Below, one piece after another: positions 223 through 6,293 of a DNA stretch of 48,437 nucleotides (the stretch's first letter is position 1; each line of letters starts with the position of its first letter). The stretch comes from Candidatus Fermentibacterota bacterium (GTDB lineage: Bacteria; JAFGKV01), in the NCBI GenBank assembly GCA_016928395.1, contig JAFGKV010000144.1:1-48437 (forward strand), given 5' to 3'. Under the pieces are notes generated by a model that was not told where the DNA came from, did not search any database, and worked only from the letters and a program-made list of their open reading frames with translations. The translations under genes were made by a program, and so were the position numbers.

Positions 223-1329
223 CTACAGATCCGGGAACCACTCCGCCAGGATTCGTGGCCGCGGTCCCATGGCCTTCCACGGTGAGAAGACCCCTGGCCT
301 GGTGGCGCCGATCCAGGAAGGCAAGAACGGGCCTGGCAGCCCAAACCACTCCTTTGACATGATTGGTTGCGGATAGCCGAAATCCCTTAGATCGTCGAGA
401 CCGATGTCGGGTAAGAAGAGCGGCATCGCAAGGGTGAGTTTGGGGAAGTATGCGCATGCCCCGAAGCGGGGGGTGAGGGGCGGTCTGGTTCCCTGGATCA
501 CGTTCCGCCACACCGCCAGCGCACCCAAAGCATGCACACCATACTTCTGCACATACATGCCCCGAAGATCATGAATCACATCGATGTCCAAGGAATCCCC
601 GCGATCCTCGACGCGCACTGTAGTCGCCCGGCCGCACACTCGCGATTCGAAGAGCAGGTCTATCGTGTCGCCATCGTCCAAGGGAAACTCCCTCAGCAGC
701 ACGGGAACGCGCCCCCTCCCGGGAATCTTGATGGCCCGTCGAATCATTCGAAGGCCTCCGTGGCTGGGCTCCACGTGCTCGTCGTGACGAGGCGGCATAT
801 CGTAGTGAAGACAGAGCACGCCCCGGCCGATGAATCCCCCTTGGACGAACCTCAGCGGATACACTGCGGCATTGGGGTAGCGGTCACGGAAGGGTGCCAG
901 GGCGTCGTCACCGCTCAAGGCGAAACCTTGAGCATCACGCGTCATGTCCACCACTAGTCTGAAGCCGTCCCAGGTTCGCAGTTGCACGAAGACCCGGGCC
1001 CGCTCCTCCGCATCCTTCACCCCGTCAGCGGGTCCTGCAAAGTGATGCGCATCGGCCGTGAGAACGATTGCGGCATTGTGCGCCGCGTACGCCGCTCCCA
1101 ATGATTCGATGCTGGCCGCCCGCAGTTGCCGGGCTCCTGCGGAAGAGGCCACATCGCAGGCTGCGCAGGGGTCTTCGGCCGGGTTGCCTCGCGGCAGGGA
1201 CGGGCCGGCAGCCGCATGGTAACCGACGAGAATGCATAGCGACCCAAGCAGATGAAACACAGGGCTTTTCACGACGAACCCCAAGCCCGCAAGAATCCTC
1301 ATGGGATGCCCGCGACGCAGATAGACCAT
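223..1329 (-). CDS. Unknown secreted or membrane-anchored protein
   Basis: I do not recognise this 368-residue protein. It starts with a short basic stretch followed by a hydrophobic segment (about residues 20-41, ending VGYHAAAG), which looks like a signal peptide or anchor, so most of the protein should be outside the cytoplasm. The rest is a mixed alpha/beta-looking chain, with several Trp, Arg and Asp and a Pro/Gly/Trp-rich C-terminus (residues 320-368). Two internal CxxC-like cysteines (CAAC, residues 55-58) follow the signal region. The start is uncertain: Met10 (1302) or a GTG about 20 codons in would also keep the signal segment, and none has a clear ribosome binding site. It is divergent from the selenoprotein gene. 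The reading frame is long and codon use looks normal, so I trust that it is a gene but not any function. Confidence 0.7.
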   Translation of the reverse strand: MVYLRRGHPMRILAGLGFVVKSPVFHLLGSLCILVGYHAAAGPSLPRGNPAEDPCAACDVASSAGARQLRAASIESLGAAYAAHNAAIVLTADAHHFAGPADGVKDAEERARVFVQLRTWDGFRLVVDMTRDAQGFALSGDDALAPFRDRYPNAAVYPLRFVQGGFIGRGVLCLHYDMPPRHDEHVEPSHGGLRMIRRAIKIPGRGRVPVLLREFPLDDGDTIDLLFESRVCGRATTVRVEDRGDSLDIDVIHDLRGMYVQKYGVHALGALAVWRNVIQGTRPPLTPRFGACAYFPKLTLAMPLFLPDIGLDDLRDFGYPQPIMSKEWFGLPGPFLPSWIGATRPGVFSPWKAMGPRPRILAEWFPDL

Positions 1330-1798
1330 GGTTGACGGGAGACTGTTGGCAATGATCCCGCTCCTCGAACCCCCCCTCCAGACTTCCTCCCGTGACGCCG
1401 AGTTCTGAGCACACAGGGTCAGTCATCAGTTGCACGCTCCCCGATCGAGACGCTACCGACTCCTCCCACCCGTTCACCCATCCTCCCGCCATTCTATGCC
1501 CCGCACGCGTTCGTGCGAAGTGAAGCCTGCTTCCCGTTTGGTGAAACGACTGTCACCGAAACGGATCCTCACGGGGGATCGGAGGAAGGGGAAGAGGTGT
1601 TTCAAGAGGAGATGAAGCACGTAACAACCTTGTGCGACAACGGTGCCTGCGCAAGTCAAAGAGGCCGGCACGCATGTCGTGGAGTCCCTGGTCTGTGGCA
1701 TGCGTATTGCTTGACGATGCTGCAGCGCCGGCCAACTTCATCCCGGTACTCGATGAACCAGCCACCCGCCTGACCGCAGGCAGTTCGGAGGAATCCTC
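1330..1798. other. Divergent intergenic region, no gene seen
   Basis: About 470 bases separate two divergently oriented genes, so promoters for both should lie here. Short frames on both strands lack credible ribosome binding sites and conserved sequence. A TTGACG at 1711-1716 could be a -35 element for the plus-strand gene, but no good -10 lies at the right distance, so I do not call it. The only clear signal is the GGAGGA ribosome binding site at 1787-1792. Confidence 0.5.
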
Positions 1799-3178
1799 GT
1801 GACGCGATGTTTGGTTTCTGGATTACTCATCACCGCCATCGTGGCCGCCGCGCTCCTCGTGCCGGGAGATGGCAATGCCGGCCCGGGCAAGGGAGCTCTC
1901 ACCATCGTCTACACGGGAGACGTAGTCGGCACCATAGAACCCTGTGGGTGAGGCGGCGCCCAACAGGGCGGGCTGGCCCGGCGGGCCACCATACTCAGCA
2001 GATTCAGGGATGAGGGCGAGTATCTCCTTGTGGATTCAGGCGATTTCTCGGGGAAGAACAATGTGCAGGGCCGCTTTCAGGCGGAAGCGGTATTGGAGTC
2101 CATGGCCAGGGCCGGGTACCACGCCGCTGCCCTGGGCGAACGTGAGCTTGGCCTGGGCAGAGCATTCGTTGATTCCATCATCGAGGCCATGCCGTTCCCG
2201 CTGCTGGCAGCCAATCTGGTCGATCCCGTCACGGGCGCACGATTAACCAAGACCTATGAGATCGTCGATGTCGGCACGGTGCGGGTCGGCATTCTCGGCC
2301 TGGTCATGAAGACCGCACCGGGAAACGTTGACACCGCAGTCTTCAGGATCGAAGACCCCATGCAGTGGGCACAACAACTGGTACCGGAGATAGCGGCCAA
2401 GAGCGACGTCGTGGTGGTGCTCGCCCACTTAGGCTGGGGAGGGGCGTTCTCCCTGGCGCAACAGGTCCCCGGAATCGATGTCATCGTGTCCGGCCATGGG
2501 TCGTATGCCACGGAACAGCCTCAACGGGTAGGTGAGACTGTGCTCGTCCAGGCGGGGGATCAGGGCAAGCGGGTCGGGCGCCTGAGCATCACGGGCGAGA
2601 TAAAGAAGGGGAAATTCTCGGGAACACTGACTACTCTGGGCAGAGATGTACCCGATGATCCTGACATCAAAAATCTCGTTTCGCACTACAGCATTCGGGT
2701 CAGGGAGTACTACTCCAGCCTCAACCACGGTGCCCGTACATCCCCTGCACCCACGCAGGTCAGCCAGCGTTACGGCGGTGCACAGCAATGCCGCGCATGC
2801 CACGCCCCGGTGTATGAGCGATGGCTGGAGACCGGGCATTCCCATGCCATGGCAACGCTGGAGCACAGAGGCAAGCACTTCGACCCCGAGTGCGTCCGGT
2901 GCCATAGCACAGGCTACGGAAAGCCGACCGGTTTCATCAGCATGAAGGTGAACCCTGATCTCGCCAATGTCCAATGTGAGCAATGTCACGGCCAAGGCAG
3001 CCTGCATATCATGTACCGTACCAAGGGCGATGCGTCCCTGGAGGGGTTGAATCCCGTTATGGCAGAGAGGGCACGGAAGTTCCCGGTGGTTGGGCCAACG
3101 GTGTGCCTCCAGTGCCACACTCCCGATCGGGACCCCGATTTCACCTACCGGGAGGGAGACCTCACCGGTATCCACTAG
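1799..3178 (+). CDS. UshA-like phosphoesterase / tetraheme cytochrome, probable selenoprotein (TGA at 1949-1951)
   Basis: Reading from GTG 1799, which has GGAGGA six bases upstream, gives a signal peptide (about residues 1-27), then a metallophosphatase/5'-nucleotidase-like domain and a C-terminal cytochrome c554-like region. An in-frame TGA falls at residue 51 within the motif EPCG-U-GGAQQGGLARR, and the same frame continues open to 3178 (459 residues). Both sides of the TGA match this family, whose members usually have Cys at that place, so Cys49-Gly50-Sec51 would form a CxU redox pair. Phosphoesterase landmarks in degenerate form are VDSGDF (about 77-82), GERELG, LAHLGWGG and VSGHGS. Four CxxCH heme sites lie at about 331, 365, 393 and 436. 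The protein should be exported and redox-active; the substrate is unknown. UshA-like selenoproteins have been described before. The alternatives are a sequencing error (TGC/TGT to TGA) or a pseudogene. Confidence 0.82.
1949..1990 (+). promoter_or_regulatory. Candidate selenocysteine UGA codon with bacterial SECIS-like hairpin
   Basis: Downstream of TGA 1949-1951, TGGCCC (1974-1979) pairs perfectly with GGGCCA (1983-1988) around the loop GGC. A second possible stem, CGCCC/GGGCG, lies at 1957-1969. Bacterial SECIS elements need a stem-loop whose apical loop lies roughly 16-37 nt after the UGA and has a G near its start. Here the loop begins 28 nt after the TGA with GG. This fits, but in sequence this GC-rich small hairpins are common, so it is supporting evidence only. 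Confidence 0.5.
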
Positions 3179-3475
3179 GCTCTCTGCGGATGCAGTCGCT
3201 CAGGTGACAGGGTTCTCCAGAGACATCGATGACAGAAAGGTGGCCTCGCCGAAGACTGGAAGCACCTAATGCGAGTCGGCAGCCCGGGCGCAAGGTGCCG
3301 CACTCTGAGGTCCGAAGCGGATGGCTCTGTCTAGACGGGGATGTGGACGTGGGCAAGACTGAACTTCCCGAACCCCGAACCCTTGCTCGTACCCGGGTAT
3401 ACGGTCCAAGGTCAGTCACCACAGAGATTGCTAGACCATTGACTATCGAACGCCGGTCGAGAAGAGGGGGCCGCC

Positions 3476-4864
3476 ATGCACCACCCAGATAGGACCCGCG
3501 GCATACCCCGTGCGGTGGCCTTGCACTATTCCGTTGCGCCGGCCGTGCCCGCGTCTGCCGAGGATGGTGTGGTGGAAGTGGTAGCTGCAGAGGCGCTTGT
3601 GCCTGCATCCGTAGCGGAGATCGAACAACTGACAGGTGTTCGGATTCGCGTGTCGGGCGTTTCCCGAGAGGGCTACCAGGCGAGGCTTGCGCAGGTCTAC
3701 GGCATCGGGGCTGCCGCCATTGAGGAAGACCGAGCGTCTCCTCCCCCAGGAGAGGCCATCCTGCCTCCCGAGGCAGGCGTCGTTCGCTTTGTTGACGAGA
3801 TTATCGCTGAGGCCGTGCGGCGAGGGGCCACCGATCTGCACCTTGAACCCTCCGTCGATGGCCTGCGTATCCGCCTCCGCGTCGACGGGTTGCTACAGGC
3901 CGTGCAGGCACCCCACGATCTGACCGCTCACGACCGGCGTATCGTAGCCCGAATCAAGGTCATGGCCGGCCTTGACTCGACTCCCTCGACAACGCCCCGG
4001 GACGGCGCGATCCGCCGAGACGGGCGAGACCTCAGGATTTCCGTACTGCCGACTGCGGCAGGCGAGGCCGTGCATGTGCGCATTCTGCCGCAGTGGGGCG
4101 ACTTCCCTACTGTGGAAGAACTGGGCGTTTCCCCTGACAGGGGCCGCATGTTGCGGAACCTCATGCGGATGCGCAGCGGGCTTGTGGTGGCGTGTGGACC
4201 AACAGGCTCGGGAAAGAGCACGACGCTCCACGTTCTGCTCCGCACTGGCGTTCCGTCTACGGAGAAGGTCATCACTGTGGAAGATCCGGTGGAGTTTCGA
4301 ATTCCGGAAGCGGTGCAGGTCGAGGTGAGCCCCGTGCTCACCTTCGCTGACGCCCTTCGGGCGGTTCTGCGCCATGATCCCGATGTGATACTGGTGGGTG
4401 AGATGCGCGACGCGGAGAGCGCACGGATCGCCCTGCAGGCTTCCCTCACGGGCCACCTCGTGCTCACCAGCCTTCATACCGACGATGAGGCGCAAGCCAT
4501 CACCCGCCTCTTGACGCTGGGCATGGATCGTCCCCTGCTGGCGGCCGCGCTGAGAGCGCTGATCTCTCAGCGGCTGGTCCGCAGAGGGTGCAGGGCATGC
4601 CAGGGAACCGGCTTCTCGCACAGCAGTCAGTGCGAAGTCTGCCGGGGCAGTGGTTACCGGGGACGGGTTGGACTGTTTCGCGTCACCATGGTCCGCGCTC
4701 TGGTTCGCCAGATGATCGAGGGCGGATCCCCAGAAGAGGAGATTCGGGAGCACATGGACAGCGCTGGTGAGCCATCGCTGCACGCACAGGCCCGGCGGAT
4801 GGCTGATGAAGGCATGACCACAGAGGCCGAGATCGCGCGGGTCATGGGATTGTCGATGCCATGA
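3476..4864 (+). CDS. gspE: Type II secretion / type IV pilus-like assembly ATPase GspE
   Basis: This 462-residue protein is a hexameric cytoplasmic ATPase that powers pseudopilus assembly. Visible motifs are Walker A GPTGSGKSTT (241-250), Asp box TVEDPVE (267-273), Walker B DPDVILVGEMRD (301-312), His box TGHLVLTSLHTDD (325-337), and a zinc-binding CxxC pair (CRAC 372-375, CEVC 386-389). An N2-type domain with TDLHLEP sits at about 119-125. The N1 domain is short and the loop before the Walker A box reads STPSTTPRDG where family members usually carry RRLPQDG. The ATG at 3476 has GAGGGGG six bases upstream. It overlaps gspF by four bases (ATGA), indicating translational coupling. No secretin gene accompanies it here. 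Confidence 0.93.
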   Translation: MHHPDRTRGIPRAVALHYSVAPAVPASAEDGVVEVVAAEALVPASVAEIEQLTGVRIRVSGVSREGYQARLAQVYGIGAAAIEEDRASPPPGEAILPPEAGVVRFVDEIIAEAVRRGATDLHLEPSVDGLRIRLRVDGLLQAVQAPHDLTAHDRRIVARIKVMAGLDSTPSTTPRDGAIRRDGRDLRISVLPTAAGEAVHVRILPQWGDFPTVEELGVSPDRGRMLRNLMRMRSGLVVACGPTGSGKSTTLHVLLRTGVPSTEKVITVEDPVEFRIPEAVQVEVSPVLTFADALRAVLRHDPDVILVGEMRDAESARIALQASLTGHLVLTSLHTDDEAQAITRLLTLGMDRPLLAAALRALISQRLVRRGCRACQGTGFSHSSQCEVCRGSGYRGRVGLFRVTMVRALVRQMIEGGSPEEEIREHMDSAGEPSLHAQARRMADEGMTTEAEIARVMGLSMP

Positions 4865-5859
4865 ACCCAGACGCTCAGGCTGACTACTGCGCGGATTTGG
4901 CGCTGCTCTTGCAGCACGGAACCCCCATGGCCGAGGCGTGCGACCTCCTGGCCGGGGAGGCAGGTGTGGGGTCGATCGAGATGCAGATCGCATCCGGCGT
5001 GAAGAGCGGCGAATCACTCCGCCACGCCCTGGAGGCTACCCGTGTGCCCTCCTGGGCGCTGGCTGCAGTCGAGGCCACGGAGACCACGGGAAGGCCCGCC
5101 GATGGTCTCGACCTGGCCTCCCGGGTGCTCCGGGAGCATCGGGTCTGGCGCGACCGGATGATCCGAGTGACCACCTATCCGCTACTAGTGCTGGGTTCGT
5201 CGCTGCTGCTGGGCCTCATTCTGTTCCGCAGCATCCTCCCCACCATCTCTGTCTTGGCCGAGGAGTTGGGGGCAGATCTCCCGTTGGCCACGCGCACGGC
5301 GTTGGTTCTTGGCCACGCAGCGATGTCTCCGGTAGCCTGGGTGATTGCCCTCGTCGCGCTTGGTGGCACCTTGGCCCTGGCATCAGACCAGGGCCGGCTG
5401 CGTGCCGCGGCATCGAGGCTGCCCGTCATGGCAGAGGTCATCCGTATGGACGAATCCCGGCGGTACTTCGGCGTCCTCGGCGCACTACTGGCAGCCTCGG
5501 TGCCCTTGGATCGAGCCATGGAAAGGACGGCGCACTTGGTCGTCAACGCCTCGTGGCACGCGGAAGTACTCGAGCTGGCGCGCAGGGTGCGAGCGGGTGA
5601 CTCGCCGGCTGCAGCGGCCCGAGATGTGCGGTGGTTCCCCACACGGGTGGCCAGGGTCCTGGCGGTAGCCGAGACCGCCGGCACACTGCATCAAGCGTGC
5701 AGCTCATTGGCCGATTATGCCGAGCGTGTCCTGACCAGGCGGCTCGATGGGCTGGCCCGATGGGTGCCGCTGATTCTACTGGCCGCAGCGGCCGCGTTCA
5801 TCGCATTCCTCGCGCAGGCCTTACTCATGCCTGCCTTCCAGATCGACATAGCTCTGTGA
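4861..5859 (+). CDS. gspF: Type II secretion inner-membrane platform protein GspF
   Basis: GspF is the polytopic platform on which GspE and the pseudopilins assemble. The 332-residue protein carries two T2SSF repeats (about 7-120 and 195-315). Hydrophobic segments follow the first repeat (about 103-124 and 145-165), and a last one lies near the C-terminus (about 300-325). It is shorter than the usual ~400 residues because the N-terminal extension is missing. The ATG overlaps the gspE stop by four bases, and gspG starts eight bases after its own stop, so the three genes form one operon. Identity is clear from the domain pattern and the neighbours. Confidence 0.9.
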   Translation: MNPDAQADYCADLALLLQHGTPMAEACDLLAGEAGVGSIEMQIASGVKSGESLRHALEATRVPSWALAAVEATETTGRPADGLDLASRVLREHRVWRDRMIRVTTYPLLVLGSSLLLGLILFRSILPTISVLAEELGADLPLATRTALVLGHAAMSPVAWVIALVALGGTLALASDQGRLRAAASRLPVMAEVIRMDESRRYFGVLGALLAASVPLDRAMERTAHLVVNASWHAEVLELARRVRAGDSPAAAARDVRWFPTRVARVLAVAETAGTLHQACSSLADYAERVLTRRLDGLARWVPLILLAAAAAFIAFLAQALLMPAFQIDIAL

Positions 5860-5867
5860 GGTACATC

Positions 5868-6293
5868 ATGCGACGGTCTCGTTCTGGCTTTACTCTACTC
5901 GAGCTGATGCTCGTTCTGGCGATTCTCGCTGCGTTGGCCTATATGGCAGTGCCTCGCTTCGCCGGTCGTGCTCGCCGGGCCAAAGTGGCCACGGCCGGTA
6001 CCGACATCCGGCTTAATCTTCCCGCAGCTCTGGATATGTACGAATTGGACAGTGGGATATACCCCACGACGCAACAGGGTCTGGCAGCCCTCATCGAGAA
6101 GCCGGTCACCGAACCAGCGCCTGCAGGCTGGGATGGCCCCTACCTCAGGCGGCCCGTGCTTCCTCGCGATCCGTGGGGCAATCCCTATGTCTACCGCCAC
6201 CCTCCTACCAGGCCGGGTCTGGACTACGAGATCCTTTCCGCCGGCCCCGACGGCATCGAAGGCACGGCCGACGACATCACGAACTGGGAGTGA
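5868..6293 (+). CDS. gspG: Major pseudopilin GspG
   Basis: The protein begins MRRSRSGFTLLELMLVLAI, a classic prepilin leader cut between Gly and Phe, with Glu at position +5. The C-terminal half has the GspG pattern: YPTTQQGLAALIEKP, WDGPYLRR, DPWGNPYVYR, and an Asp-rich end (GPDGIEGTADDITNW) that matches the calcium-binding site of GspG. At 141 residues it is of normal family length. The ATG follows TGAGG seven bases upstream and lies just after gspF. Longer upstream starts in this frame would bury the prepilin leader and are rejected. The gene end overlaps by 17 bases the convergent aldehyde dehydrogenase. A prepilin peptidase must be encoded elsewhere. Confidence 0.94.
   Translation: MRRSRSGFTLLELMLVLAILAALAYMAVPRFAGRARRAKVATAGTDIRLNLPAALDMYELDSGIYPTTQQGLAALIEKPVTEPAPAGWDGPYLRRPVLPRDPWGNPYVYRHPPTRPGLDYEILSAGPDGIEGTADDITNWE

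Follow-up and report, generated by a model that had tools for sequence, protein, structure and literature searches.

Whether the single in-frame TGA of an otherwise open gene is read as selenocysteine (Sec), and what kind of protein would result, is the question raised by the stretch of DNA analyzed here (48,437 nt in all; hereafter, the window). Translated with TGA as U, positions 1799-3178 form a single open frame with one TGA (residue 51, nt 1949-1951) and four CxxCH sites. This agrees with an earlier note on this DNA, whose coordinates were right and which had described a frame running from a leader to four heme sites and broken only by TGA at residue 51; the internal start at 2030, given there as ATG, is GTG. 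The features to which we refer below are as follows:

1787..1792, + strand: likely ribosome-binding site (GGAGGA) upstream of the GTG at 1799, read from the sequence
1799..3178, + strand: predicted selenoprotein gene from GTG to TAG, 459 aa including Sec51, assigned to the UshA-like PCGU family (NF041198); from the translation and the NF041198 match
1799..1882, + strand: predicted signal peptide, residues 1 to about 28, with a basic start, a hydrophobic stretch, and small residues near the putative cleavage site; from the translation and a helix at residues 5-19 in the model
1895..2719, + strand: 5'-nucleotidase/SoxB-like metallophosphoesterase-fold domain, about residues 33-307, with degenerate metal ligands; from Pfam, alignment, model, and structure comparison
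1943..1951, + strand: predicted Cys49-Gly50-Sec51 motif, TGA at 1949-1951; from the translation, the TGA of kin, the family column, and alignment
1952..1996, + strand: bSECIS-like region, with a predicted hairpin at about 1971-1990 and the loop GGC at 1980-1982, 28 nt after UGA
2777..3175, + strand: tetraheme cytochrome c554-like domain, CxxCH at residues 331-335, 365-369, 393-397, and 436-440; from Pfam and alignment
3476..4864, + strand: GspE-type ATPase gene, a neighbor conserved beside the selenoprotein gene in kin and not thought to be a functional partner

In the translated protein, residue 51 lies in the context EPCGUGGAQQGGLARR. No lipobox was seen in the predicted signal peptide (residues 1 to about 28); the protein is presumably exported, with c-type hemes on its four CxxCH sites outside the cytoplasm.

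A chance open frame is excluded because two related genomes carry TGA at the identical codon and keep the frame through it. Over the 17 codons before the TGA, the window differs from the related locus L020 at 3, 2, and 11 sites in codon positions 1, 2, and 3, respectively, and from locus L063 at 2, 1, and 9, and this third-position-biased divergence indicates a protein under selection. Family members were sought in 386 diverse genomes and found in 131 of them (E up to 1e-30, heme-free relatives included); 29 pass the NF041198 cut-off. Among 82 distinct motif-bearing genes, the column of residue 51 holds TGA in 45 and Cys in 37 (23 TGT, 14 TGC), with neither TAA nor TAG; TGA forms were fetched preferentially, so that the 45:37 ratio is no frequency and the evidence lies in the lack of any other stop. 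The gene selA was present in all 27 tested genomes with the TGA form, compared with 7 of 15 with the Cys form (Fisher p=5e-5). In a tree of 68 members, calculated with the site masked, the window protein groups with L020 (60% identity, support 100/99), and about seven Sec/Cys changes are reconstructed (bootstrap 6-8), of which well-supported branches alone force only one. No relatives were found in viral contigs, and a plasmid search gave partial matches only (<60% identity).

The Sec machinery was sought in the genome to which the window belongs, as the earlier note had suggested for selA, selB, selC, and selD. A tRNA-Sec (76.8 bits, Rfam cut-off 47; ARAGORN anticodon tca) and SelB (342 bits, cut-off 242), whose absence that note would have counted against Sec, are both present, and SelD is encoded by two genes, one itself interrupted by an in-frame TGA. 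SelA was not found with two models in this metagenome-assembled genome (MAG), which is 94% complete; a weak match proved to be a SufS/cysteine-desulfurase-like gene adjoining SelD. Both related genomes (G001 and G002, genus and family relatives) contain selA, and we therefore read its absence here as incompleteness. The SelD gene with the in-frame TGA lies on contig C22 (about 2400-6000; L014, L065) together with a YeeE/YedE-like transporter, a TusA/YedF-like gene, and a SufS/cysteine-desulfurase-like gene, in what looks like a selenium supply cluster, and the second SelD match (C199:54349-55278; L013) is located inside a 783-aa stop-free open frame, possibly a SelD fusion. The missing selA is what could be cited for reading the TGA as a true stop, arisen by nonsense mutation or assembly error, in a pseudogene or in a gene that starts at 2030. 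We regard this as extremely improbable, given that three genomes share the TGA, that divergence upstream of it is biased toward third positions, and that the TGA/Cys pattern and the co-occurrence with selA extend across the family.

The RNA downstream of the UGA was examined for a bSECIS-like hairpin, defined as a hairpin of at least 4 bp whose loop lies 16-37 nt after UGA and has a G near its start. The pattern occurs in 43 of the 45 TGA genes and in 15 of the 37 Cys genes (p=4e-8), and in L020 the hairpin loop lies at the same distance from UGA as the GGC at 1980-1982 in the window. The 45 bases after UGA in TGA genes are also more stable than their synonymous recodings (mean z -0.79), compared with -0.09 at control positions (p=3e-5) and -0.03 in Cys genes (p=1e-3); the value for the window itself is -1.9. 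A 57-nt stretch that takes in the UGA, slightly longer than the region 1952-1996, folds differently from it, and its minimum free energy was not significant against dinucleotide shuffles (z -0.52); synonymous recodings are the more telling comparison. No Rfam match was found in the window at gathering thresholds. Pattern and energy together are supporting, not conclusive, evidence for Sec, since the conserved GGLARR region is encoded by these very bases and the TGA and Cys sets differ in base composition. Taken with the Sec machinery, the column that holds only TGA or Cys, and the co-occurrence with selA, this hairpin lends strong support to Sec51, and the TGA at 1949-1951 is almost certainly a selenocysteine codon. 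The Sec that the earlier note had placed at residue 51 is thus well backed, and the alignment of homologs that it had proposed across this residue revealed only Cys or TGA and no unrelated residues.

To which family does this protein belong? It matches NCBIfam NF041198, the 'UshA-like (seleno)protein' model (UshA_like_PCGU), at 313.6 bits (cut-off 275; 305.7 bits in a six-frame search), and carries its PCG(U/C) motif with TGA at the invariant column. The model covers the heme domain also (positions 346-519), so the phosphoesterase-tetraheme fusion is already part of a known family. UshA-like CxU selenoproteins (COG0737) were reported in a marine survey in 2008 (PMC2398784) and appear in reviews from 2022 (PMC9312934) and 2026 (PMC13188914), the latter naming NF041198, which bears out the statement of the earlier note that UshA-like selenoproteins with Sec or Cys are known. 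Its expectation that a standard pipeline would annotate only the 3' part of the gene overlooks this model, curated by NCBI for exactly such a (seleno)protein. The window protein shares the PCGU motif, the CGU domain, and the heme domain with NF041198 and differs only by lineage, its nearest relatives being MAGs labeled Fermentibacteria and Eisenbacteria; we found nothing that sets it apart in kind, and it adds a lineage to an already catalogued family. A literature search returned no function for the UshA-like PCGU family.

Other known proteins resemble it in part. The UshA-like selenoprotein family 2 (NF049981) has the fold superfamily and the selenoprotein status in common with it but a CxxU motif instead of CxU, and the window protein scores 76 bits, under the cut-off of 140. 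Cytochrome c554 of Nitrosomonas (PF13435, PDB 1bvb) has a tetraheme domain like the C-terminal one found here, which, in contrast, is fused to the CGU domain and misses the NF043010 equivalog cut-off (40 vs 400 bits). ExtKL of Geobacter (PMC5877670) and MccSep (PDB 9wt8) are likewise selenoproteins that carry several c-type hemes; however, the text consulted on ExtKL describes no phosphoesterase-fold domain, and MccSep has no significant sequence match to the window protein (E 0.52).

The fold of the N-terminal domain is that of 5'-nucleotidases and SoxB. In the AlphaFold2 model (pLDDT 90), residues from about 32 to 307 superimpose on 5'-nucleotidase 2z1a (Z 34.6, rmsd 2.5, 277 aligned) and on SoxB 2wdc (Z 32.1, rmsd 3.9, 286 aligned), and Pfam Metallophos is matched at 24.4 bits (cut-off 21.5). 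The two-metal ligand set of such enzymes (DxH, GD, GNH, H, GHxH) is incomplete, with DVV in place of DxH, GER in place of GNH, and GHGS in place of GHxH. The histidine of DxH is V43 here and mostly R or K in other members, GNH is replaced, the two late His positions vary, and the catalytic metal-ligand positions as a whole are not conserved in 68 members. D41, D82, H210, and H233 are left in the window protein, which may therefore still bind some metal. No Pfam match to the C-terminal 5'-nucleotidase substrate domain was found, and the tetraheme domain stands in its place. Thus, compared with UshA, CD73, and SoxB, with which it shares the N-terminal fold (Z 32-35), the window protein is without the metal ligands and the C-terminal nucleotidase domain, and it has the tetraheme domain and CGU instead. 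An active metallophosphoesterase, either a 5'-nucleotidase or a SoxB-like thiosulfohydrolase, with an attached cytochrome and an auxiliary Sec would account for the strong fold match, for the Metallophos score above its cut-off, and for SoxB being the second best NCBIfam match (TIGR04486, 94.4 bits). We consider it very unlikely in view of the replaced and unconserved ligands, a SoxB score far under the cut-off of 550, and hemes where the substrate-binding domain should be.

Conservation points in another direction. An alignment of 67 diverse, heme-bearing members shows no variation at C49, G50, C/U51, G57, G58, G81, H347, A350, or the Cys and His of any of the four CxxCH sites, and no further invariant Cys, His, or Asp was found in the phosphoesterase-fold domain. 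With the redox motif and the hemes invariant and the metal ligands unconserved, selection appears to keep the former and not a hydrolase, which points to a redox protein built on a phosphoesterase scaffold and not to a nucleotidase. The position of the CGC/CGU loop, following the first strand, is one at which phosphoesterases bind their metals, and some acidic and His positions survive in the window protein. Both observations would suit a selenoprotein in which C49 and Sec51 bind a metal or metalloid, that is, a metal-binding or metal-sensing cytochrome and no thiol/selenol oxidoreductase. We consider such a protein unlikely, though worth keeping in view, because repeated Sec/Cys exchange (with the reservation noted above on how many changes the tree forces) and a strictly kept CxC/CxU spacing are typical of redox motifs, and the domain is without further invariant Cys, His, or Asp.

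The C-terminal domain matches PF13435 (Cytochrome_C554) at 61.4 bits (gathering cut-off 20.8), and the CG(C/U) motif is not confined to proteins that carry it. Heme-free relatives with the motif exist, and no separate cytochrome gene (at least two CxxCH) was found within about 5 kb of them. Since they keep it, the motif needs no hemes on the same chain, and a CG(C/U) centre can probably work without these hemes. The CxU domain might then act alone, the hemes being a separate electron-transfer module or docking element with no direct exchange with Sec. We judge this distinctly unlikely for the heme-bearing branch, where neither part varies among highly diverse genomes, which suggests joint function; still, given the heme-free relatives, that electrons pass between Sec and the hemes is something that we infer, as the earlier note had done. 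On contig C5 of genome G157 (about 975-3300; L173), three heme-free UshA-like genes follow one another, with TGA at the CG(C/U) site in two and Cys in one. Contig C229 of genome G198 (L130) holds two tandem TGA-form tetraheme copies, and a third copy without an in-frame stop is found on its contig C141. The genome of the window itself encodes, on contig C53 (2600-5100; L018, L019), a 1210-aa open frame with two tandem UshA-like domains.

Neighboring genes name no substrate. Directly downstream (3476-6293), the window carries type II secretion or pilus-type genes (GspE, GspF, pseudopilin-like); the GspE neighbor is kept in L020 and L021, and the GspE/GspF adjacency is conserved only in kin. Across about 40 loci examined, we found no conserved partner gene beyond lineage synteny and no conserved neighbor indicative of a substrate. 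In SAR324 members, which have the Cys form (L032, L033, L034, L039, L047), conserved genes lie directly upstream of the UshA-like gene: one is PorV-like, and two are without any Pfam or NCBIfam match.

We therefore propose, as the probable reading, an exported UshA-like PCGU selenoprotein with a Cys49-Gly50-Sec51 redox centre on a degenerate phosphoesterase scaffold and electrons moving via the tetraheme domain. UGA at codon 51 would be decoded as Sec, and the protein would be exported and receive c-type hemes at its four CxxCH sites outside the cytoplasm. Having lost most of its metal ligands, the phosphoesterase-fold domain would act as a scaffold, with Cys49-Gly50-Sec51 displayed next to the former active-site pocket in the loop that follows the first strand. 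There, redox catalysis would probably lie with the thiol/selenol pair, which would pass through a selenenylsulfide in its cycle, and electrons would enter or leave through the tetraheme domain. Candidate extracytoplasmic substrates are a thiol/disulfide, a metalloid, or an oxyanion of sulfur or selenium. Conservation, fold, and Sec machinery in this scheme were computed; Sec insertion, selenenylsulfide cycling, electron exchange, and substrate are put forward as its conjectural part.

The UshA-like PCGU family is common: 131 of the 386 diverse genomes have a match at E up to 1e-30, counting heme-free relatives. The window extends the range of selenoprotein users by a Fermentibacteria/Eisenbacteria-like lineage. 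The conservation pattern of the family leads to a testable claim, namely that the name 'UshA-like' misleads and that the family is a redox enzyme. More tentatively, and with some doubt on our part, the family may represent a widespread class of oxidoreductases acting outside the cytoplasm, their phosphoesterase fold having given up metal catalysis and bearing a CxU/CxC redox centre that is connected to a tetraheme chain. If so, this class would link selenol/thiol chemistry to multiheme electron transfer.
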